Origin: Candidatus Latescibacterota bacterium | Lineage (GTDB): Bacteria; Latescibacterota; UBA2968; UBA8231 | NCBI GenBank assembly: GCA_022825185.1 | Contig: JAJDYK010000072.1 | Location: 1 to 19,349 of the forward strand | Direction: 5' to 3' | DNA length: 19,349 nt | Shown: one piece after another, positions 7,866 through 18,053 of the stretch | How positions within the stretch are numbered: the stretch's first letter is position 1 | Layout of the letters: each line of letters starts with the position of its first letter | Notes under the pieces: model-generated | What the model was told of the DNA's origin: nothing | Databases searched by the model: none | What the model saw: only the letters and a program-made list of their open reading frames with translations | Program-made: the position numbers and the translations under genes

Positions 7866-7918
7866 TCAAAGTTATTCGCACGTTCTGCTCTAACCGCACA
7901 TTGCAAAGGATTTTACCC

Positions 7919-8128
7919 ATGGCAGATCGCGAGAAGGGAACCGTAAAGTGGTTCAACGACGCGAAGGGCTTCGGATTTATCGAGCGCGAGAACGGCGAAG
8001 ATGTCTTCGTCCACCACAGCGCGATCCGGGCCGAGGGTTTCCGCACCTTGTCCGACGGGCAGCAAGTGGAGTTTGAAGTCGTTCAGGGCAAGAAAGGCCC
8101 AGCGGCTGAGAGCGTCGTAGCGCTATAG
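7919..8128 (+). CDS. Cold-shock domain protein (CspA family)
   Basis: The 69-residue product is a complete single cold-shock domain of the usual length. The RNP1 motif KGFGFI lies at residues 16-21 and the RNP2-like DVFVHHSAI at 28-36, after the family-typical KGTVKWFN start (6-13). Such proteins bind single-stranded RNA and DNA and act as RNA chaperones in the cytoplasm. ATG 7919 is preferred to the upstream TTG 7901 because AAAGGA (7905-7910) stands eight bases before it and the protein then starts as usual. A strong intrinsic terminator follows 19 bases after the stop. The next gene also encodes an RNA-binding protein, so the two may work in related processes. Confidence 0.96.
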
Positions 8129-8197: not shown

Positions 8198-8464
8198 ATG
8201 AAGATTCGCGTTGATAATCTAGCTACTGAAGTCACCGAGGACGACCTCCGCACGCTGTTTGAGTTGTTCGGGGCCGTCGCCGCGGCTACCATTGATCCGC
8301 GCCGCCGCTGGGGCCAAATCGACATGCCCAGCAAGGCCGCGGCCCGCGAGGCCATCGACATGCTCAACGGGCAAAATCTCAAGGGACTTGACATGGTCGT
8401 CGAGGAAATGGCCGACCGGCCCACGCGCCCGCGCGGCAGGCCCCGCAGAGGCCGACGGCGCTAG
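8198..8464 (+). CDS. Small RRM-type RNA-binding protein
   Basis: The 88-residue protein is one RNA recognition motif followed by a basic tail. IRVDNL at 3-8 matches RNP2. RRWGQIDM at 36-43 sits where RNP1 (usually KGFGFVEM) belongs; the aromatic residues are largely replaced, which is common in divergent bacterial RRMs. The helix LRTLFELFG (17-25) is typical. Residues 75-88 are rich in Arg, Gly and Pro, as in the RNA-binding tails of cyanobacterial-type Rbp proteins. GGAG (8189-8192) lies five bases before ATG 8198. It probably binds RNA in the cytoplasm and may be produced by read-through of the cold-shock terminator. Only four bases separate its stop from the convergent ABC transporter gene. 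Confidence 0.85.
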   Translation: MKIRVDNLATEVTEDDLRTLFELFGAVAAATIDPRRRWGQIDMPSKAAAREAIDMLNGQNLKGLDMVVEEMADRPTRPRGRPRRGRRR

Positions 8465-8468
8465 CCCC

Positions 8469-10244
8469 TTACTCGTACCACTGAGCTTGTAGGCTAAACA
8501 AGCGACTGTACTCGCCGCCCTTGCGCATCAATGCCTCGTGCGTCCCTTGCTCGATGATCTGTCCGTTTTTGAGCACGAGAATTCGGTCGGCGGCGCGGGC
8601 CGCGCCCAGCCGGTGCGAGATCATCACTGAAGCCTTGCCTTTGGTCATCTCCCCAAAGCGCCGATAGACCTCGGCCTCGGCCTTGGGATCGAGTGCGGCC
8701 GTCGGCTCGTCCAGCACCACGAACTCAGCCGCCCGTGCCAGCGCCCGTGCCGTGGCCAGTTTCTGCCACTCACCCGTAGATAAGTCAGCCCCTCCTAGTT
8801 CCTTGCCCAGCAGGGCTTCGTACTGATCGGGCAACTCGGCGATAAACGACGCTGCGCCAGCTAGCTCGGCCGCCCGCTCGACAGAAATCGCTTGTCCCAA
8901 AGCCCCAAAGGCGATGTTGTCGCGCACGGGAAATTGAAAGCGCACAAAGTCTTGAAAAACCGCGGCAAAGAGCTTTCTGACCCGCTCTTGGGGATAGGCC
9001 AAAAGCGGCTTGTCCCCGAGCAAGACCCGTCCTCCTGTCGGCTGGTATAGCCCCATCATCAGCTTTACTAAGGTCGTCTTGCCAGCCCCGTTTTCGCCGA
9101 CTAGCGCGACGCGCTCGCCCGGCCGGATTTCTAGGTCGATGCCCGCGAGTACGAGGTCGCCGTCTGGATAGTGGAAGGATACCTGCTCAAAGCGCAGCGG
9201 CAGGTTTTTCAGGTCTTGGCCTGCGTCCGCAGCGCCTCGGGATGTTTGGGGTGCCGTCAGGTCGAGGAATTCGTAGAGATCTCCTAGATACAGGGACTCC
9301 TCGTGCAGGGTGTTCAAGGAGCGCATGATCCCGCCGAGCTGCCAAGAAAATTGCTGCACGGCCCGCGCCAACATGCCGTACTGGCCGATGGTGAGCTGCG
9401 CCCCGGCGACCAACCAGACGAGGATCGTCAGGCAGCCGATGTATCCCCAGCCGCCGATGCTGGAGGTCAGCCCGCCGAGCCAAGCCCGCTTGGCCTCCAG
9501 CCCGCGGCGCTCCGTGGCCAGCGCGACGGCTTTGTCGCGCCACGTATCGAGCAAGTGGTCGCGCAGCGTGAAGAGCCGCACCTCCATGGCTTGTTCGCGC
9601 TCGGTCAGTAATTCGCGGAAATAGGATGTCTCGCGGTATTGCGGCGTGCGCTCGCGATAGACGTAGTGCGTCTTTTTGCTGATCCACATCATCACCAACA
9701 CCCCTGGGACGGAGCCGATCAAGGTCAGCGGCCCCAAGGCCCAATGCCCGGTCAGCAGTACGCCTACGACCGCGACCATCCCCCCCAAGGTGCCGACCGT
9801 GTCTAGCGCCACGTTGAGCAGGCTGAGGAGCCGGCCGCTTAGGTCTTCGTTGGCCCGCTTGAGCGCGTCGTAGAACGCGGGGTGCTCGAAGTGGACTAAT
9901 TCGACTTTTTGCACCTTGTCCACGACTTGCCGCTGTAAGCGCACGCTGACTCGATCTTGGACATCTGTCTGCAAGACCGCCCGCACCATATCGAGCAGCA
10001 TGTGGGTGAAGAGCGTGGCGAAAAAGCCGCCGACCCAAGGCAGGGTTTGCAAAAAAGCCGCGCGGCCACCGCCCAGCCCGGCGGCGAGCTGATCGACGAT
10101 CCGCCCGGTGAGCCACAGCTCCACGGCCGGCAGCAGCGAGCCGATCAGCACGATGATGGCCAGCCCACCCGTTCCCCAGGGATGGACGCGGAGCACCTCC
10201 TTGAGGAGCGTGGGCAAGAGGCGTATCGCGCTCAGTCGCTTCAC
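8469..10244 (-). CDS. ABC exporter half-transporter, permease fused to ATPase (second gene of pair)
   Basis: The 591-residue protein has an N-terminal membrane domain (about 1-330, six helices expected) and a C-terminal nucleotide-binding domain. Walker A is GENGAGKT at 383-390, the Q-loop glutamine is Gln431, and the signature is LSTGE at 488-492. Walker B ends in Asp512 with catalytic Glu513, and the switch histidine is His544. I chose GTG 10244 because AGGAGG (10254-10249) lies four bases upstream and the codon overlaps the stop of the preceding gene in GTGA. This indicates translational coupling. The longer frame from 10553 would run far into the upstream gene. The two proteins share motifs and the C-terminal FSLQAQWY, so they are paralogs and probably form a heterodimeric exporter of a lipid, peptide or drug-like molecule. 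The signature is not the standard LSGGQ. Confidence 0.9.
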   Translation of the reverse strand: MKRLSAIRLLPTLLKEVLRVHPWGTGGLAIIVLIGSLLPAVELWLTGRIVDQLAAGLGGGRAAFLQTLPWVGGFFATLFTHMLLDMVRAVLQTDVQDRVSVRLQRQVVDKVQKVELVHFEHPAFYDALKRANEDLSGRLLSLLNVALDTVGTLGGMVAVVGVLLTGHWALGPLTLIGSVPGVLVMMWISKKTHYVYRERTPQYRETSYFRELLTEREQAMEVRLFTLRDHLLDTWRDKAVALATERRGLEAKRAWLGGLTSSIGGWGYIGCLTILVWLVAGAQLTIGQYGMLARAVQQFSWQLGGIMRSLNTLHEESLYLGDLYEFLDLTAPQTSRGAADAGQDLKNLPLRFEQVSFHYPDGDLVLAGIDLEIRPGERVALVGENGAGKTTLVKLMMGLYQPTGGRVLLGDKPLLAYPQERVRKLFAAVFQDFVRFQFPVRDNIAFGALGQAISVERAAELAGAASFIAELPDQYEALLGKELGGADLSTGEWQKLATARALARAAEFVVLDEPTAALDPKAEAEVYRRFGEMTKGKASVMISHRLGAARAADRILVLKNGQIIEQGTHEALMRKGGEYSRLFSLQAQWYE

Positions 10245-12049
10245 GACGCCTCCTGCTGGTACCACTGCGCCTGCAGGGAAAACATGCGCGCGTATTCTCC
10301 TCGGCGCTGCATCAGCTCGGCGTGTGTCCCCTCCTCCAACACCCGGCCTTGGCTCAGGACCAAGATCCGGTCGGCCACCCTCGCCGAGGCCATGCGGTGC
10401 GAGACGAAGACCGCGGATTTGCCCTCGCTCAGGGCCAAAAATTGGCGGAAGACCTCCAACTCGGCGCGCGGGTCGAGGGCCGCGGTCGGCTCGTCGAATA
10501 CGAGGACTTGGGCGTCGCGGAAGTACGCGCGCGACAAGGCCAACTTCTGCCACTGGCCGCGCGATAGATCCTGCCCGCCCTCAAAGTAGCGGCCCAGTGT
10601 GGTATTGTAGCGCTCGGCTAGGGACTCGATCAGCAGCGCACTGCCGCCCGCGGTTGCGGCCCGTTCCACTCGGGCCTGATTGGCGAGCGCCTCGGCTTGG
10701 CCATAGCCGATGTTTTCGCGCACGGTGCGCTGATATTGCACGAAGTCTTGGAAGACTGCGGCGCAGCGCTGGCGCAAGACCTGTGGGTCGATTTCGCGGC
10801 CATCCACTCCATTGTAGAGGACGCGACCCGCGCTCGGCTGATATAGCCCTAAGAGCAGCTTGATTAGGGTCGTCTTGCCGGCCCCGTTTTCGCCCACTAG
10901 CGCGAGTTTTTCCCCGGGCCGAAGCCGCAGATTGACCCCGCTGAGCACGAGTGGCCCGTCGCCATAGGTAAACCCCGCGTCCTCAATCGCGATTTCCAAT
11001 GGCGCGGCGGGCAGGGTTGTTTGGCCCTCCGGCTCGGGGGGCGACTCGACGAAGTCGCGCAAGTCGCGGATGTGGAGCGTTTGCTCAAAGACATCGCCCA
11101 TCTGGCGCAGCAGTTGGAAGAGCGTGCCTTGGAAGCGCGTGATGGCCTCGGCGAGGGCGAAAAAGCCCCCCAAGGTCAGGGTGCCATAGGTGGCTTGGTA
11201 GAGCAAGATGACCAGCGATAAGAGCGCCGAGGTGATGCCGCTCAGCCGCCCGCCGAACATGTAGCGCTGCTGGCGCAGGGTCAGCCGCAGGCGCTGCTGG
11301 CGGAGCGTTTGCGCCACCGCCTCCCAAGTGCGGACGAGGAGATCACCTAGCCCGTAGAGCCGGACTTCCTTGGCTGCGTCGCGGTCGGTCATCAGTTCGA
11401 CCAAGTACTCGGCGCGTCGCTGTTCGGGCGTCTGCTGGTAAAAGAGCGCGTAGATTTCGCGGCCCCGCCGAATTTGGGTGTAGAAAACCGGAGCCGTGCC
11501 CAAAAAGAGCACTAGCGGGATCGACCAGTGCCCGGTGGCAAACAGCGCGATTAGGGAGCACAGGACGACAAAACCTTCGAGCGCGACTGCGGCGTCGCGG
11601 AAGATGCCGTAGGCGCGGTAGTACGCAGCCTGCCGCGCCCGCTGCATGCGGTCGAAAAATTCTCGGCGCTCAAATGAGTCCAAGCCCACGCCGGCCGCTC
11701 GGTCGAGGACTTGCTCTTGTAGCTTCCAGCTAGTCTGTTCCCGTATGGCCGCGGCCGCGTGTTCCTGCACCGCATTCAGCACGGCTTCCAACATTTGCAA
11801 GCCCGCCAAGCCGGCTAGCAGCGGAACCACGGCGACGAACTGGTTCTCGCCTTGGCCGAAGGCGGCGTGGACGGCATCGACCAGCTCTTTGATCAGCAGG
11901 ATGCGCCCGGCCGGCAGCAGGGCCGCTAGGAATCGCCCGCTGACGTTTAGGAGCATGGCCGTGGGTGCGCCGCGCCACAGGATGCCGGCGAACCACATGA
12001 GGGCTTGGCGCACTTCGCGGGGATGAATGTTGGGGGCGTTTTGATTCAC
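10241..12049 (-). CDS. ABC exporter half-transporter, permease fused to ATPase (first gene of pair)
   Basis: The 602-residue protein combines an N-terminal membrane domain (about 1-335) with an ATPase domain. Walker A is GENGAGKT at 386-393, Q-loop Gln434, signature LSRGQ at 495-499, Walker B with Asp519 and catalytic Glu520, and switch His551. It therefore keeps the residues required for ATP hydrolysis, as does its partner, so neither site is obviously degenerate. GTG 12049 is the start: an in-frame stop lies seven codons upstream, no other start codon occurs between, and GGTGA stands seven bases before it. Its stop overlaps the start of the next gene by four bases. The substrate cannot be told from the sequence. 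It is divergent from the antiporter gene. Confidence 0.9.
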   Translation of the reverse strand: MNQNAPNIHPREVRQALMWFAGILWRGAPTAMLLNVSGRFLAALLPAGRILLIKELVDAVHAAFGQGENQFVAVVPLLAGLAGLQMLEAVLNAVQEHAAAAIREQTSWKLQEQVLDRAAGVGLDSFERREFFDRMQRARQAAYYRAYGIFRDAAVALEGFVVLCSLIALFATGHWSIPLVLFLGTAPVFYTQIRRGREIYALFYQQTPEQRRAEYLVELMTDRDAAKEVRLYGLGDLLVRTWEAVAQTLRQQRLRLTLRQQRYMFGGRLSGITSALLSLVILLYQATYGTLTLGGFFALAEAITRFQGTLFQLLRQMGDVFEQTLHIRDLRDFVESPPEPEGQTTLPAAPLEIAIEDAGFTYGDGPLVLSGVNLRLRPGEKLALVGENGAGKTTLIKLLLGLYQPSAGRVLYNGVDGREIDPQVLRQRCAAVFQDFVQYQRTVRENIGYGQAEALANQARVERAATAGGSALLIESLAERYNTTLGRYFEGGQDLSRGQWQKLALSRAYFRDAQVLVFDEPTAALDPRAELEVFRQFLALSEGKSAVFVSHRMASARVADRILVLSQGRVLEEGTHAELMQRRGEYARMFSLQAQWYQQEAS

Positions 12050-12228: not shown

Positions 12229-14784
12229 ATGCACAATGTAGCGCTCGATTTACTCATCTTGCTCGCCGGGATTTGGCTAGTGGCCGTGACCTTGCGGCCG
12301 CTGGGCCTGCCGACGGTGATGGGAGAACTGATCGTCGGGGTCTTGGTGGGGCCAGCGGTGTTCGGCTGGATTGAGCCGGACGAGGCCATTCAACTATTGG
12401 CCGAGATCGGCATCTTTTTTCTGATGTTCCACGCTGGGGTGGAGACCCAGCCCAACGAGTTTTTCGCCGCGCTCAAACGCTCGCTGGGAGTGGCGATTGC
12501 AGGGGCCGCAGTGCCCTTTGCCGTCAGCTTTGCCGTCGCCCAATTCTTTGGGTTGGATCTGGCCGCCTCCGTCTTCGTGGGGCTGATCATTGGAACGGCT
12601 ACCGCAGTCGTAATCACCCTAAAAAGCTTCAAGGACTTGGGGTTGACCGATACTCGCATTGCGCGGATCGTCGTCGCTAGTTGCATCATCAACGACCTTT
12701 TGACCTTGATCTTTTTTAGCTTAGTGATCGGCGCACTCTCCGGCGGCACCTTTGCCCCCATGGATCTAGCTGTCAATTTGGGCAAGGTGGTGGGGTTTTT
12801 CGCGGTCGCGCTGCTGTTGGGCACTTTTGTCTATCCCCGACTCACCCTGCCCTTCCGCGCCGAAGGTGGCAAGGGCTTCACCTTCGTGCTGCTGGCCGCC
12901 ATTGCCGCCGGCCTTTTTGCCGAGGCCATTGGGCTGCACATGATCTTGGGTGCCTACTTGGCGGGTCTTTTCTTTGAGGAGCGCGTCGCCCACCCCAACC
13001 TAGTCAAGGTGGTAAATGACCGCGCCTATGGCATTGCCTATTCGTTCTTAGGGCCGATCTTCTTCATCTCGCTGGGCTTTTCCATTTCGTTTGACATTAG
13101 CGCGGCGAGCGTGGCGTTTATCGCGCTCCTAGCCGTGACTGTCATCGCCGGGCAGGTGCTTAGTGCCGGTGGCATGGCGCTGCGCATTGGCATGCCTTGG
13201 CGAGAGGCGCTGACGGTGGGTGTGGGCATGTGCGGCCGTGCCGAGATGGCGTTTATCTTGGCTGCGCTGGCCTTGGCGCAAGGGGTGATCGGTCAGGAGA
13301 CCTTTACCATTTTGATCTTCACCGCGTTCCTGTTAAATCTCTTCACGCCGCTGGCGCTCAAGGGCTGCTCGGTCCTCCTGGAAGGCCGGGTGGCGCATGG
13401 AGGAGACACCCATCTCGGGGTGTTCCAGCTCGACAAGTTCAGTACCCCGCTCGTCGATGAAAACCCAGCCGAACACGCCCTGCCCGCCGTAGAGGACGCC
13501 GTGGTCATCTATGGGTACGGGCCAGAGGTCGAGACCCTAATAGAAGAGCTTGCGAGTCGGCACCTGCCAATGGTGGTAATCGAAGAGGACGAGGCGACGG
13601 CGCGGCAACTTCAGACAAGTGCTGATGTGCAGGTCGTACATGCGCACCTAGCGGCGGAAACGCTGGACCTGCGGCCGTTGACCAAGGCCAAGGCGCTGGT
13701 GGCCAACGGCTCTGACGACGACAACGCCCTGTTTGCGCTCAGTGCCCGCGAGGCCGGTTTTGCCGGTCCCATTGTGGCGATGATCGAGCATCCCCAGCGC
13801 CGCGGTCCCATGTTGCTGGCTGGCGCGACTGCGGCCTTTACTCCCAACCACGTTCTCGCTGCGGCGATCGCCGTCCGCGCCAGCGCGAGAATCGGGCCTC
13901 GGGTGGCGGGCGTGGAGTCGCTCGACTCGTTTCTCGAAGTGGCCGAGCTGCGCGTACACGACCAAAGCCCGCTCGCCAACCGCACCTTGGCCGAGACCGA
14001 GCTCTACACCCGGACCGGCGCCCACATCGTCGGGCAGTGGGCGGACGACGCGCTCGGCTCGCCGCCGGCCGCGGCGGAAAAGCTGGAGCCCGGAACAATT
14101 CTGGTGGCGGTTGGTGCGCCCGAGAGCATTCACAGATTAAACGACCTGTCGCGGCCGATTACCCAGCAAGGGCCGATTGTGGTGATTGGCTTTGCCGATG
14201 TCGGGCAGAAGCTGGTCGAGATTCTCCACGCCACGGGCGAGGATGTGCGGGTCGTCGATGAGGTCGAACGCGCCGGAGTCGATGTGGTCGGCGACGTGCT
14301 CGACGTGCGCGTCCTCGATCGCGCCGCCATTGCAGAGGCGCGGGTCGTCATCCTCGCCCTCGACAGCGACGGGGCCGCCCTGTTTGCCGCGGCGGTGGTG
14401 CGCGATCACGTCCCGGAGATTCCCCTGTTGGCCTGCGTGTCCCACGTTGAAAACGCCGACCGGGTGCAGCGGGCTGGCGCTGATTTTGCGCTCTCGGTCA
14501 GCCAGGTCGCCGGCCAGTTGCTGGTTCACCACGTCCTCGGGGAGACGGTTTCGCACAAGCCCCGGATCAAGATGGTCAAGCTGCGGCCCGGCCCCCTCGC
14601 CGGACGCCATCCCCTCGCAGCGCGCATCCGCGAGCGCACGGGCTGCTCGGTGGTGGCTGTCGAGCGGGCCGGCGACGTAATCATGGAAATCCCAGCCTCG
14701 TTGGTGCTCGAGCCCGAGGACGCGCTCTACATCTGCGGCACGCCCGCGGCCTTTGACCGCTACTACGAAGAATTTCCGACTTAG
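12229..14784 (+). CDS. CPA2-type cation/proton antiporter with two tandem RCK (TrkA) units
   Basis: The 851-residue protein has an N-terminal Na+/H+ exchanger-type membrane domain (about 1-390, 12 or so helices), which would exchange K+ or Na+ for H+ in the inner membrane. The ion-site pair is Asn155-Asp156 (SCIINDLL), and a conserved basic element GRAEMAF lies at 336-342. Two cytoplasmic RCK units follow. The first Rossmann fold starts at VVIYGYGPEV (425-434), with its C-terminal domain near 565-635. The second starts at IVVIGFADVG (650-659), with a RCK_C near 780-845. KefB/KefC-like proteins usually carry one RCK domain of nucleotide-binding type, so this doubled architecture is notable. 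The second fold has a degenerate glycine motif. The start ATG 12229 has only a weak GTAGAGA upstream, but the first helix begins at once. It overlaps the PhyH gene tail to tail by four bases. Confidence 0.9.
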   Translation: MHNVALDLLILLAGIWLVAVTLRPLGLPTVMGELIVGVLVGPAVFGWIEPDEAIQLLAEIGIFFLMFHAGVETQPNEFFAALKRSLGVAIAGAAVPFAVSFAVAQFFGLDLAASVFVGLIIGTATAVVITLKSFKDLGLTDTRIARIVVASCIINDLLTLIFFSLVIGALSGGTFAPMDLAVNLGKVVGFFAVALLLGTFVYPRLTLPFRAEGGKGFTFVLLAAIAAGLFAEAIGLHMILGAYLAGLFFEERVAHPNLVKVVNDRAYGIAYSFLGPIFFISLGFSISFDISAASVAFIALLAVTVIAGQVLSAGGMALRIGMPWREALTVGVGMCGRAEMAFILAALALAQGVIGQETFTILIFTAFLLNLFTPLALKGCSVLLEGRVAHGGDTHLGVFQLDKFSTPLVDENPAEHALPAVEDAVVIYGYGPEVETLIEELASRHLPMVVIEEDEATARQLQTSADVQVVHAHLAAETLDLRPLTKAKALVANGSDDDNALFALSAREAGFAGPIVAMIEHPQRRGPMLLAGATAAFTPNHVLAAAIAVRASARIGPRVAGVESLDSFLEVAELRVHDQSPLANRTLAETELYTRTGAHIVGQWADDALGSPPAAAEKLEPGTILVAVGAPESIHRLNDLSRPITQQGPIVVIGFADVGQKLVEILHATGEDVRVVDEVERAGVDVVGDVLDVRVLDRAAIAEARVVILALDSDGAALFAAAVVRDHVPEIPLLACVSHVENADRVQRAGADFALSVSQVAGQLLVHHVLGETVSHKPRIKMVKLRPGPLAGRHPLAARIRERTGCSVVAVERAGDVIMEIPASLVLEPEDALYICGTPAAFDRYYEEFPT

Positions 14785-15605
14785 CTGTTGGGTGGATAGG
14801 CCCGGAACAAGTCTCGCTGCGCTTCGGTGAAGCGAGCAAATGTCTCCGGGGTGATGTGCTGCTTTTCGTCCATAGTGGCGATGTTTTGCGACATCATCCA
14901 ATACGGTCCGTAGCCCACGTGCAGGGTTTTGCGCGTCTGCTCAGAGCGGTTGGTGAAGCCGCCGTGGCGCAAGTTTTCGGTGAAGAGAATCGCGTCGCCG
15001 GCTTTGACCTCTAGGCCGATCATGTCGGGGTCTTCGTCTGGGTCGTTGCTGTGGGGCGAGGGCAGGTTGGTCTTGTGCGTCCCCGGCACCACGCAAAAGG
15101 CCCCCTGTTCGTTGGTGCAGTCGTGGATGAAATAGACCATTCGCACCATCATGCAGTCGATGCCGTGGTCGGTGTAGCTGTAGCGGTACTTTTGGCTGGC
15201 TGAAGCGGTGCCGCCGTGGCAGCCGGTGGCGTTGCCCTGGTAGCGGATGCGGATCTCGGAGTTGTTGATCGTCGGCCGCTGTTTGACGATGCCGTGGATG
15301 TAGTTCATCGTCGGCTGGTGATCGAGCAAGATGTCAAAGGCCGGATTGGCGTTCCAGTAGTCTTCGATGATGAGGGTTTTGCCCTCGGCCCGCTCGCCGT
15401 TGGTGTGATAGCCGCGCTCGGGATTGGCGTGGTAGTTGGCTCCCCAGCCGCTTTGTTTGCGCGGCGGCTGGGTGACGTGCGCGAGCGCGTGTTCTTCCAG
15501 CTCATCAACGGCCTCGGCCAGCGCGGCCACTTGGGTCTCGTCTAGCAGGTTCTCAATGACGATGTAGCCCTGGCGGTCGAATTCAAAGGTTTCGATTTCG
15601 TTCAC
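14781..15605 (-). CDS. PhyH (phytanoyl-CoA dioxygenase) family protein with HxG in place of HxD
   Basis: The 274-residue protein has the PhyH fold markers GYIVIENLL near the N-terminus, FCVVPGTHKTN (170-180) and GDAILFTENLRHGG (203-216). Family members are Fe(II)/2-oxoglutarate oxygenases. The distal iron ligand would be His214, and Arg225 (or Arg220) fits the oxoglutarate-binding arginine. The proximal motif, normally HxD, reads His130-Gly131-Gly132, so the carboxylate ligand is absent; the nearest Asp is not in register. GTG 15605 is the start, with AGGAG (15616-15612) six bases upstream inside the stop region of the preceding amidohydrolase gene. The two genes are ten bases apart and clearly form an operon. 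The substrate is unknown, and hydroxylation should not be assumed. Confidence 0.85.
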   Translation of the reverse strand: MNEIETFEFDRQGYIVIENLLDETQVAALAEAVDELEEHALAHVTQPPRKQSGWGANYHANPERGYHTNGERAEGKTLIIEDYWNANPAFDILLDHQPTMNYIHGIVKQRPTINNSEIRIRYQGNATGCHGGTASASQKYRYSYTDHGIDCMMVRMVYFIHDCTNEQGAFCVVPGTHKTNLPSPHSNDPDEDPDMIGLEVKAGDAILFTENLRHGGFTNRSEQTRKTLHVGYGPYWMMSQNIATMDEKQHITPETFARFTEAQRDLFRAYPPNS

Positions 15606-15615
15606 GTGTTGCTCC

Positions 15616-16419
15616 TTATTTGTTGAACCATCGGGCCAAGTTGCCCCCTTTTACCAGCGCCCGCTCGGCCTCTCCGTAGTCTGATAGATGCGCATCGACA
15701 ATCGCCGGCGTGCCGCTGCCCCAGACCATACGCTTCGGCCCGAAGGCTTCGATCACGCGCTGCGTAAAGGGCTTGGCGCTTTCGTACAGCGGCGCGTCTT
15801 GGGCGAAGTGGCCGAGGCCGGAGAGCTTCATATAGACCTCGGCGTCAGTACGACTCAGATCAAGTATGTCGGCGTATTCGACGGCGCTGCCTAGATGCGG
15901 CTCGGCCAAGTGGTCGATCAGCGCCACGGTCTGAGGAATGTCGCGCAGAACTTGGGCGACTTGGGCACCGTAACTAGGCTCAATGTGCAATTCGACGACC
16001 AAGCCCAGTTCCACCGCCTTTTCCCACAGGGTGCGCACCCCTTTGTCATTGAAGCTGTGGAAATACAGGTCCCTGTCTCGGTACGCATGAAAGCGCGTGG
16101 CGATGATTTTGGGCTCGCGAGCGACTAGATCGGCTAACTTTTGGGGCGCGTCCGGGTCCTGGGGATAAAACAGCGATGTGCCCCGCAGCCTCTCTGGCTC
16201 GCGCTTTAGGCATTCGAGTATCAGCCGGTGGTCGTCCCCATACGGCTCGGGATGGACGACGACGGCCCGGTCGATTCCCTCGTCGTCTAGGCGCTGCAAA
16301 TAGGCCGCCAATGGGTCGGGGGGATGCACGGAAACATCCGGTTGGTAGGTTGCCTTGGGATGCAAGGGATAGCGCTGGGTATCGGGGCTGAAGATGTGGG
16401 CATTCCACTCGACGATCAT
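15616..16419 (-). CDS. Amidohydrolase-2 family TIM-barrel protein with altered metal-site residues
   Basis: The 267-residue protein matches amidohydrolase-2 enzymes (related to 2-pyrone-4,6-dicarboxylate lactonase) in length and in its order of elements. The N-terminal strand is NAHIF (6-10), the barrel strand LVVELHIEP lies at 140-148, ALIDHLAEPH at 166-175, and the C-terminal MVWGSGTPA at 231-239. Active members have DxHxH at the N-terminus and WGSDxP near the end. Here these read N-A-H-I-F (His8 kept, the second His replaced by Phe10) and W-G-S-G-T-P (Gly236 in place of the catalytic Asp). His145 and His170 are kept. The start ATG 16419 has GAGGAG (16433-16428) upstream. It is followed ten bases later by the PhyH gene. 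It is either a divergent enzyme that needs less metal coordination or a non-catalytic homolog. Confidence 0.85.
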   Translation of the reverse strand: MIVEWNAHIFSPDTQRYPLHPKATYQPDVSVHPPDPLAAYLQRLDDEGIDRAVVVHPEPYGDDHRLILECLKREPERLRGTSLFYPQDPDAPQKLADLVAREPKIIATRFHAYRDRDLYFHSFNDKGVRTLWEKAVELGLVVELHIEPSYGAQVAQVLRDIPQTVALIDHLAEPHLGSAVEYADILDLSRTDAEVYMKLSGLGHFAQDAPLYESAKPFTQRVIEAFGPKRMVWGSGTPAIVDAHLSDYGEAERALVKGGNLARWFNK

Positions 16420-16491
16420 CGGGCTGTCTCCTCGTGCAGAGCAAGGGTAGCACGCCGGTCTGCGACTGTCAAACGGCTCTGCCGCAGCACC

Positions 16492-16520
16492 TTGACAATA
16501 CAGTCTGAGAATTCTATTTT
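16492..16520 (+). promoter_or_regulatory. Promoter of the tRNA-Glu gene
   Basis: TTGACA (16492-16497) is a perfect -35 box. TATTTT (16515-16520) follows at exactly 17 bases as the -10 box. Transcription would begin near 16527, about 27 bases before the mature tRNA. Confidence 0.75.
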
Positions 16521-16553
16521 TTGAAGCTGTTAGGCTGAAAACAAACTTTAGTT

Positions 16554-16629
16554 GGCCCGTTCGTCTAGAGGCCTAGGACGCCGGCCTCTCACGCCGGTAA
16601 CACGGGTTCGAATCCCGTACGGGCTACCA
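16554..16629 (+). tRNA. tRNA-Glu, anticodon CUC
   Basis: The 76-base gene folds into a standard cloverleaf. The acceptor arms GGCCCGT (16554-16560) and ACGGGCT (16619-16625) pair with a G-U at the first position. The anticodon stem CCGGC/GCCGG encloses the loop CTCTCAC, giving anticodon CTC for glutamate GAG codons. The T arm is ACGGG TTCGAAT CCCGT. Discriminator A and CCA are encoded (16626-16629). It has its own promoter and terminator. Confidence 0.97.
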
Positions 16630-16635
16630 ATTATT

Positions 16636-16680
16636 AAACCCCAGGTTGCTATTGCTATAACGACTTGGGGTTTTCTTTTT
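16636..16680 (+). terminator. Intrinsic terminator of the tRNA-Glu gene
   Basis: AAACCCCAGGT (16636-16646) pairs with ACTTGGGGTTT (16663-16673), an 11-bp stem with one wobble pair. A T-rich tail (TTTCTTTTTT) overlaps and follows the 3' arm. It begins seven bases after the encoded CCA. Confidence 0.8.
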
Positions 16681-16722
16681 TGGGACTTGTGGACGCCGAT
16701 TGCGGCGGATGGAGAATAGCTC

Positions 16723-17133
16723 ATGCCGGAGACTTGGACTACTAGTGGTAAGCTGAGTAGTTTTGAGAACAACTTGGCCATTCGCCAAGCTGTGGATGAG
16801 GCAAAGAAGCGTCTGTTGGCCTTGGAAGAGAATTGGGATGGCGAAGAATCTCCCGCTTATCAAGAGCGAACTCTAGAGGCCGCTGCTGGTTTTCTCTATG
16901 CGCTAGTGGAGAAATCTGAGACGCTGGAAGCAGCGAAGGTACGGATCTTACCAGCCAGCGAAGGCAGCATAGACCTGCACTGGAAGACGGATCGGTTTGA
17001 GCTTTTGGTCAATTTCCGTCCTGACGGCGCGGTCTCCTACTACGGAGACGACTATTGCGAAAACTCCATCGAGGGCCAGACTCGTCCCAAGCCGGAGTTT
17101 ATCTCATGCTGGATGGAGCACGCTGGTGAATGA
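16723..17133 (+). CDS. Conserved protein of unknown function, first gene of a two-gene module
   Basis: The 136-residue protein has no signal peptide or membrane helix. Visible blocks are an N-terminal helix AVDEAKKRLLAL (23-34) running into ENWDGEES (36-43), then EGSIDLHWK (80-88) and SYYGDDY (105-111). I recall this combination of NWDGE, GSIDLHWK and YYGDD-like blocks from uncharacterised proteins scattered through cyanobacteria, planctomycetes and others; no function is known to me. GGAGA (16711-16715) lies seven bases before ATG 16723. Its last eight bases overlap the next gene on the same strand, so the two are translationally coupled. It starts 94 bases after the tRNA-Glu gene, a common site for inserted DNA, which would fit an accessory module. 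A toxin-antitoxin or defence role is possible but unsupported. Confidence 0.85.
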   Translation: MPETWTTSGKLSSFENNLAIRQAVDEAKKRLLALEENWDGEESPAYQERTLEAAAGFLYALVEKSETLEAAKVRILPASEGSIDLHWKTDRFELLVNFRPDGAVSYYGDDYCENSIEGQTRPKPEFISCWMEHAGE

Positions 17134-17530
17134 GTGGCCTGTAGAAGAAATACCGGACGCGGATGTGCTTTACTATCGCGTTCACAAGAGAAGATACTTG
17201 GAAACATCGAACGCCCTACCCGCAGATGCACCGCAAGACGAACTCCCTCCCAACTTGTTCAAGTTCATAAAGGGCGACCTGTCGGTTGATTGGTCAAAGT
17301 ACGCAACGCCCCAAGAAGCTAAGGGCCGAGCGAGAGTACCCGCTGACAATGGCATAGTTGGATTTCGAACTGGTCCTGTGCGCACCCAAGGCCACCAAGT
17401 AGTACATACTCCCGAGCAGAATAATCGCGCCCATAGCTCTGTGCGCGGCGAAGAACCCAAGGTGCGGGTTACCTTGAGTCGCATTGCCCAATGGACTGTA
17501 GGATTTGGGCTGGAGAGTATCGGCCTGTAG
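17126..17530 (+). CDS. Conserved protein of unknown function, second gene of the two-gene module
   Basis: The 134-residue protein starts at GTG 17126, inside the end of the preceding gene. GGAG (17115-17118) lies seven bases upstream, and the protein then begins NEWPVEEIPD, typical of this family as I recall it. The in-frame start at 16997 is rejected because its first 43 residues are a shadow of the upstream gene. Visible blocks are VLYYRVH (14-20), LSVDWSKYATP (52-62), and VVHTPEQNNRAHSSVRGEE (92-110). The last has His, Asn, Arg and His residues that could form an active or binding site. No signal peptide or membrane helix is visible. I do not recognise a biochemical function. The constant partner appears to be the product of the preceding gene. 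Confidence 0.8.
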   Translation: MNEWPVEEIPDADVLYYRVHKRRYLETSNALPADAPQDELPPNLFKFIKGDLSVDWSKYATPQEAKGRARVPADNGIVGFRTGPVRTQGHQVVHTPEQNNRAHSSVRGEEPKVRVTLSRIAQWTVGFGLESIGL

Positions 17531-17595
17531 ATAGCAGGGGTTCGTGCGCTTTTTTGCTGGTACTAGCCAAACGGGTGGTCCCCGTCAATGCTAGC

Positions 17596-17991
17596 TTAGC
17601 ATCCGCACTTGATCTCGGTCCCGGGCTGCGCCCCATTACCGGCCGTGGCGTAGCCGTCGCGTTTCCACCAGTCGAGCCCACCGATCAGTTCGCGCACTTG
17701 AAACCCCAAAGTCAGTAGTTTCAGCGCCGTCTTCGTCGAGGCGTTGCAGCCGATGCCGTCGCAGTAGCAGACATAGAGCTTTGATTTGTCGAGCGATTCA
17801 GTGGAATTGAAGCAGATTTCCCGGTGGGGCAGATTGAGTGCGCCCGGAATGTGCTCTTGGGAATACGCCTCTGCGGAACGGCCATCGACGACGGTGATGG
17901 GTTCGTTCTCGCCCAATGCTACGTAGAGATCCCATGAATCCATTTCATAAGCGAGCTTGCGTTGGTAGTGGTTTAGCTGATCGATGGACAT
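17596..17991 (-). CDS. Rhodanese-like sulfurtransferase
   Basis: The 131-residue protein is a single rhodanese domain. VVDGRSAEAYSQEHIPGALNLP (34-55) is the substrate-side signature. The active loop is CDGIGCNAST (77-86), with Cys77 as the expected persulfide-forming cysteine. ELIGGLDWWKRDGY (101-114) is the usual end of the domain. It probably moves sulfur in the cytoplasm. A second cysteine, Cys82, lies within the loop, and the tail ends KCGC (128-131), two more cysteines that could take part in sulfur relay or metal binding. AAGGA lies five to six bases before ATG 17991. It is convergent with the two-gene module and 62 bp downstream of the glycosidase-like gene on the same strand. Confidence 0.92.
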   Translation of the reverse strand: MSIDQLNHYQRKLAYEMDSWDLYVALGENEPITVVDGRSAEAYSQEHIPGALNLPHREICFNSTESLDKSKLYVCYCDGIGCNASTKTALKLLTLGFQVRELIGGLDWWKRDGYATAGNGAQPGTEIKCGC

Positions 17992-18053
17992 AGTTTTCCT
18001 TGTTTGTTGAAGTGTCAGCGTCTTGTAGAATTGTAAAAATTACGACCCAAAAG

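Follow-up and report, generated by a model that had tools for sequence, protein, structure and literature searches.

Five described systems stand closest to the gene pair reported here: PDC-M32, TreTu-TriTu, KreTA, Tpt1/KptA and DarTG. PDC-M32, made up of PDC-M32A and PDC-M32B, is a phage defence candidate of the PADLOC catalogue; the accessible text of PMC12429752 lists it as a hypothetical defence system in Sinorhizobium prophages and reports no function test. KreTA is described in the accessible text of PMC12487901 as a validated type II toxin-antitoxin of Enterobacteriales prophages whose toxin, KreT, stops translation; KreT is reported there to be RegB-like and the antitoxin KreA to be perhaps TriTu-like in fold, and the pair is interpreted as an RNase toxin-antitoxin. 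The same text cites a study by whose title TreTu ADP-ribosylates EF-Tu, and the accessible part of PMC6582358 gives the Tpt1/KptA tetrad as R-H-R-R. Our subject is two small genes, P1 and P2, in a stretch of 19,349 nucleotides from Candidatus Latescibacterota bacterium (the window; contig JAJDYK010000072.1 of assembly GCA_022825185.1). We propose that P1-P2 is probably a mobile, translationally coupled toxin-antitoxin-like module, with P2 as an ADP-ribosyltransferase-fold toxin and P1 as its antitoxin.

P1 and P2 are relatives of PDC-M32

Neither P1 nor P2 reached a Pfam or NCBIfam family. The best score of P2 was sub-threshold (DUF7844, E 0.22), and P2 weakly matched phrog_16955, a phage family of unknown function (E 3e-4). 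In PADLOC, P1 weakly matched PDC-M32A (profile positions 266-340 of 375, E 6e-5), and P2 had no direct match even at E 10. Profile-profile alignment related both genes to PDC-M32: the C-terminal end of PDC-M32A resembles P1 (hhalign 94.5%, E 8e-8) and PDC-M32B resembles P2 (92.5%, E 4.9e-7), in colinear matches with PDC-M32 alignments of only four sequences and about 12-16% identity. A Loki relative also matched PDC-M32B (E 0.002).

Like P1-P2, PDC-M32 consists of two overlapping genes in A-B order. PDC-M32A has about 375 residues, with an extra N-terminal part of about 245 residues, whereas P1 of the window has 136 residues and lacks this part. We therefore regard P1-P2 as a relative of PDC-M32 and not as a member. 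True PDC-M32 pairs were found in a genome of the phylum Acidobacteriota (L042) and on plasmids of Rhizobium, Rhodococcus and Limnohabitans, with eight proteins confirmed by PADLOC; the eight PDC-M32 proteins examined had no Pfam family, save for one sub-threshold match. Genes next to the L042 pair resemble, by eye, those of type III restriction, and the Limnohabitans pair sits among annotated RelE/ParE and VapBC genes. The superfamily is wide, and the defence catalogue used touches only one edge of it.

Predicted folds of P2 and P1

An ADP-ribosyltransferase fold is confidently predicted for P2 (mean predicted local distance difference test score of the model, 95.2), and tRNA 2'-phosphotransferases and ADP-ribosyltransferases head its 50 listed matches in the PDB. 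We compared the residues kept in 70 aligned rows of the family: S53 is present in 70, F45, R86, H94 and H103 in 69 each, H20 in 65 and R18 in 61. For the wider superfamily including PDC-M32B, a count by eye over 16 members gave S53 in all 16, H103 in 15 and H20 in 13. The nicotinamide adenine dinucleotide (NAD) site of ADP-ribosyltransferases carries an R-S-E or H-Y-E triad. In the 70 rows of P2, no Glu is invariant at the last strand. Tpt1/KptA proteins have a two-lobe build. P2 (134 residues) differs in aligning just to the later part, from residue 58-88 on, and in coming with a partner gene; as a Tpt1/KptA member by sequence and by the R-H-R-R tetrad it was rejected (hhalign with E. coli KptA, probability 0.1). 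Matches of P2 on Salmonella plasmids (residues 39-84 or 39-88, E 0.04-0.7) were dropped, the one inspected being unrelated by eye.

P1 is acidic, with an isoelectric point (pI) of 4.59 and a family median of 4.75 (range 4.27-9.26, 59 rows); the P2 family is less so (pI 6.51, 70 rows). Modelling suggests that the P1 fold is perhaps TriTu-like, of antitoxin type. No macrodomain protein was named for P1 among the matches listed, in contrast to DarTG, where DarG is a macrodomain hydrolase. In TreTu-TriTu, the C-terminal toxin of Salmonella Rhs1 with its immunity protein (PDB 7ZHM), the toxin is part of an Rhs protein, whereas P2 is free-standing and follows P1; the comparison gave no sequence match in the PDB. 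KreTA, compared by description only, likewise has two small genes and an antitoxin that, like P1, is perhaps TriTu-like. By analogy, this shared antitoxin resemblance suggests kinship with KreTA, although KreT is reported as RegB-like and P2 is modelled as an ADP-ribosyltransferase. The initial annotation had assigned neither protein a function: this stands in that no family matched, and is narrowed by the P2 fold model, the perhaps TriTu-like P1 and the listing of the longer relative PDC-M32.

The two genes are coupled, paired and under purifying selection

The reading frames of P1 and P2 share 8 bases, at the end of P1 and the start of P2. As the initial annotation had proposed, P2 starts at GTG 17126 inside P1, with a GGAG, picked out by eye, ahead of it (Table 1), and every motif named for the proteins was found (NWDGE, GSIDLHWK and YYGDD in P1; DWSKYATP and HTPEQNNRAHS in P2). 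Such coupling may keep the two products in a fixed ratio, as the initial annotation had expected. We compared it in 17 loci, the window among them, with P2 start codons chosen by the analyst. In 14 of these, P2 begins 21 to 7 bases ahead of the point where the P1 stop codon ends, and in the other 3 it begins 2 to 5 bases past that point.

Protein searches returned 54 P1 relatives and 23 P2 relatives, the latter rising to 71 with a profile. A P1-profile scan of species genomes found 23 loci, nearly all metagenome-assembled, from Latescibacterota (6), Acidobacteriota, Asgard archaea (Lokiarchaeote, Sigynarchaeote), Planctomycetota, Armatimonadota, Chloroflexota, Bacteroidota and a Methylacidiphilales bin; the corresponding scan of viruses found 7. 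P1 is directly followed by a full P2-like frame at 15 of the genome loci and at 1 of the viral ones. At the other genome loci, P2 is partial (L008, L012), divergent by eye (L025) or not recognised after P1 (L005, L015, L017, L021 and L022). Scanning viruses with the P2 profile found solely the viral contig already carrying P1 and P2. P1-like genes without a recognised P2 also occur in phage or virus contigs (L001:3980-4351, on the 636-kb LR756504.1; L026-L030; L032), and these are possibly antitoxins against a host toxin.

The pairing was also examined with P2 as the anchor. The initial annotation had suggested profile searches to see whether the two families occur apart; leaving out one orphan fragment, 23 of 23 P2-family genes have P1 directly upstream. 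Among 64 Latescibacterota genomes, P2 is present in 11 (E 1e-3) and P1 in 16, of which 13 are strong (E <= 1e-10); in all 11 genomes with P2, the matched P1 stretch ends at most 44 bp from the matched P2 stretch. Both of the 2 Acidobacteriota genomes with P2 (E 1e-5; 297 scanned) have a P1-family gene upstream, and each of the 10 Planctomycetota genomes with P2 (392 scanned) has a P1-family frame directly upstream or overlapping. For one of these (L144), it took a widened profile to detect P1 (E 1e-5, for the small set that was scanned); two further Planctomycetota P1 were weak with the first profile (E 1e-4) and clear with the widened one; the widened profile includes L130 itself, which also matches the first profile (E 1e-7). 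A full P2 without P1 was not found in the scanned genomes of the three phyla, and the orphan P2, in G211, is a short N-terminal fragment. At these thresholds, P1 without P2 occurred in five weak cases in Acidobacteriota and at seven weak places in Latescibacterota. A relic in G211 (L126, G211:C1:1959145-1959352) is 84% identical to window 17074-17281, covering the end of P1 and the start of P2; it is a decayed copy apart from the intact pair of that genome.

Loss was one-sided. P2 is not intact in 3 of the 13 Latescibacterota genomes with a strong P1, and P1 is open in all three. In G195, P2 is gone right after P1; in G199, just its two ends are left; in G208, it is split by extra sequence and a stop, with P1 intact. 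We also compared the nonsynonymous and synonymous substitution rates (dN/dS). Window P2 and its three closest full copies gave a dN/dS of 0.12 (dN 0.094-0.103, dS 0.81-0.87). P1 and P2 are both under purifying selection, with unsaturated values mostly of 0.12 to 0.4; three comparisons between very closely related P1 copies gave 0.46, 0.46 and 0.70, from at most 8 changes each. P1 codons are under purifying selection in two copies without an intact P2 as well. The dN/dS of 0.12, together with the coupled frame kept in distant loci, indicates that P2 is translated, as had been assumed at the outset, rather than being a frame that arose by chance.

The pair occupies different sites in close relatives

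The window aligned with six Latescibacterota loci over the pair only, the flanks being unmatched. Together with the window, the 13 Latescibacterota copies occupy at least six sites: two are common to five close relatives each, three are single and one is that of the window. The single-site copies have no flank matches at E 1e-10, except that L096 has a stretch of 200-270 bp in common with L090 and L091. The window site, 3' of a tRNA-Glu, is empty in five relatives (G204, G210, G002, G208 and G209). These match window 15600-16680 and 17585-18000 at 90-95%, and the two matches lie 20-24 bp apart, against about 904 bp in the window; their tRNA-Glu is identical at 76 of 76 bases. Four of the five have the pair elsewhere, interrupted in G208. 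In G203 and G211, a different sequence follows the tRNA. P1 and P2 are the only genes of the insert, which has no integrase. The comparison with close relatives, called for by the initial annotation, indicates that this is not a conserved housekeeping site, and supports P1-P2 as a mobile module. A deletion in the five relatives, which are not independent of one another, could also explain the difference at the window site, but the patchy presence and the other sites make insertion likelier.

The initial annotation had also placed the pair 94 bases after a tRNA gene, as a classic insertion site. The distance is right for the window only, and the classic insertion site is not borne out, as nearly all the other copies examined have no tRNA gene nearby: we found none within the 8-16 kb examined around each of the 13 Latescibacterota copies, and one among 30 loci of the wider scan (tRNA-Lys, about 0.7 kb away). 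Integration at a tRNA attachment (att) site is rejected, since the insert sits past the tRNA hairpin, the tRNA is intact and the other copies examined, with that one exception, have no tRNA nearby. The tRNA end is not repeated within 16500-17700, the insert ends share only an 8-base T-rich word, and no att-like repeats were found at the insert. Near both ends of P2 there is an exact 10-base direct repeat (17136-17145 and 17522-17531), maybe by chance; recombination between its copies would delete the P2 core.

Genes upstream of P1 in other phyla

At many loci of other phyla, P1 is closely preceded by the end of another gene. A 220-residue family lies 5' of P1 in eight loci (Table 1), with motifs like ARILTD.RP.F and ALD..D; three members tested had no NCBIfam match. 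A profile built from six of the eight loci detected the family neither in the window nor in the Latescibacterota loci (for L093, the stretch searched covers just 131 bp ahead of the P1 frame). In the loci searched, those outside Latescibacterota, TIGR04255 proteins lie 5' of P1 at L013:4811-5542 (E 3e-26) and L014:1638-2381 (E 2e-43); no mention of TIGR04255 was found in the literature searched, which left subscription papers mostly outside. One core has three alternative upstream partners: the 220-residue family, TIGR04255 and the fused N-terminal part of PDC-M32A. That these partners act as sensors is speculation.

Taken further, P1-P2 might be the core of a large unrecognised conflict system, with an ADP-ribosyltransferase-fold effector, a TriTu-like antitoxin and the three partners as swappable sensors, the window holding a minimal version. 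We offer this tentatively and would not bet on it. Such a system would span Latescibacterota, Acidobacteriota, Planctomycetota, Bacteroidota, Armatimonadota, an assembled Lokiarchaeote genome and a virus contig. If the toxin-antitoxin reading of the pair is itself right, two families without a Pfam or NCBIfam model would gain a concrete role, and the PDC-M32 candidate would be tied to ADP-ribosyltransferase toxins and TriTu-like antidotes. One toxin-antitoxin core would then be common to bacteria, an Asgard archaeon and a virus, and the exchangeable upstream partners may set the trigger.

Proposed mechanism and alternatives

In the proposed mechanism, P2 would be a small ADP-ribosyltransferase-fold toxin, probably NAD-dependent. 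Its target would probably lie in the translation machinery and might be RNA, the kind of substrate used by the Tpt1/KptA group, or a protein, for instance EF-Tu, the reported target of TreTu. P1, an acidic antitoxin, would be translated first from the common message and would bind P2, covering the active cleft as predicted of KreA on KreT. With the P2 start lying inside P1, the toxin would not be produced until the antitoxin had been. The comparative evidence is of the toxin-antitoxin kind: the small genes are adjacent, co-oriented and coupled, the putative toxin gene was not found in full without that of the antitoxin in the genomes scanned, and the putative antitoxin gene persists alone. The undescribed coupled two-gene module that the initial annotation had suspected is upheld, as a mobile one best read as toxin-antitoxin-like; its families are nameless, so the literature was not searched by name.

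We weighed three other explanations. P1-P2 could be a two-gene anti-phage or other conflict system, with P2 as an effector that would act only on sensed infection, often by way of a third upstream gene, and with P1 as an activator, chaperone or sensor adaptor instead of an antitoxin. The third gene that precedes P1 in other phyla (the 220-residue family in 8 loci, TIGR04255 in 2), the extra N-terminal part fused to the P1-like domain of PDC-M32A and the PADLOC listing of PDC-M32 as a candidate defence system point that way. However, the tRNA occupies the third-gene position in the window, a search of the Latescibacterota copies turned up no member of the 220-residue family, and a P1 that stays open without P2, under purifying selection in two copies, suits an antitoxin better; we consider this explanation unlikely. 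The metabolic or structural accessory pair, with no conflict role, is very improbable: the neighbouring families are mostly ordinary housekeeping ones among those listed, but the presence is patchy (11/64, 2/297 and 10/392 genomes), the sites differ, the site is empty in close relatives, and P2 is lost alone.

The remaining explanation leaves P1-P2 a toxin-antitoxin and concerns the activity of P2. Rather than an active ADP-ribosyltransferase, P2 may be a member of the fold that is enzyme-dead or binds nucleic acid, or it may be an RNase toxin, which is the proposal made for KreT. The lack of an invariant Glu is consistent with this, and the conserved H20, H94 and H103 would also fit a histidine-dependent RNase. 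KreTA, with its maybe TriTu-like antitoxin, is a precedent, interpreted in the accessible text of PMC12487901 as a translation-blocking RNase toxin pair. Yet the PDB matches of P2 are led by tRNA 2'-phosphotransferases and ADP-ribosyltransferases, and no RegB-type nuclease is among the 50 matches listed, an absence that excludes nothing. We give this explanation somewhat less weight than the sensor-adaptor one, and retain an ADP-ribosyltransferase-fold toxin with its antitoxin as the likely reading.

Features of the locus and neighbouring genes

Table 1. Features of the window, and genes of the 220-residue family in other loci
Feature	Position	Strand	Remarks
tRNA-Glu (anticodon CTC)	16554-16629	+	ARAGORN and Rfam; intact, flanks the insertion
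Hairpin and T-run 3' of tRNA, terminator-like	16636-16681; arms 16636-16652, 16657-16673	+	Counterparts in empty-site relatives
Insert	16681-17584		P1-P2 flanked by 42 bp on the left and 54 bp on the right; BLAST match ends, accurate to some bases
GGAG, ribosome-binding-like site of P1	16711-16714	+	By eye; 8 nt ahead of ATG
P1	16723-17133	+	136 residues, ATG start; predicted antitoxin, possibly TriTu-like fold; kin of PDC-M32A C-terminal domain
GGAG, ribosome-binding-like site of P2, within P1	17115-17118	+	By eye; 7 nt ahead of GTG
P2	17126-17530	+	134 residues, GTG start; predicted ADP-ribosyltransferase-fold toxin; kin of PDC-M32B
220-residue family genes	L009:2455-3138, L010:5180-5899, L011:5176-5871, L018:2389-3045, L020:5045-5725, L023:481-1131		Also in L016 and L019

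Ahead of the tRNA there is a promoter-like TTGACA-17-TATTTT (16492-16520), a weak site in that shuffles average 0.7 of the kind. Since the left end of the insert is only 42 bp from the P1 start, transcription may run through from the tRNA promoter. The hairpin 3' of the tRNA was not picked up by a terminator pattern scan.

Of the 86 neighbour frames at 12 loci we scanned 85, all but a short fragment at one end; of the families that matched, 25 of 83 from PADLOC and 25 of 88 from Pfam were listed, and the names of ordinary genes were mostly assigned by eye. A constant defence-island setting was unsupported: among the matches listed, the defence matches (a type I restriction subunit, cytosine methylase models and MzaA) come from single members, and a DndA/SspA match is probably a housekeeping class-V aminotransferase. 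In two Acidobacteria loci with P1 only, a BrnT toxin gene (L017:3282-3581) and a GmrSD_N gene (L015:818-1978) adjoin P1. An orphan gene of the P1 superfamily lies in a Latescibacterota stretch (L043:6066-6479), where its neighbours, by eye, are helicase, DNA methylase, pentapeptide-repeat, kinase and helix-turn-helix (HTH)-metallopeptidase genes. Elsewhere in the window, ordinary genes were recognised by eye for a cold-shock protein (7901-8128) and an RNA-recognition-motif protein (8198-8464), along with two tandem ABC transporter genes (8469-12049) and a cation/proton antiporter gene (12229-14784).
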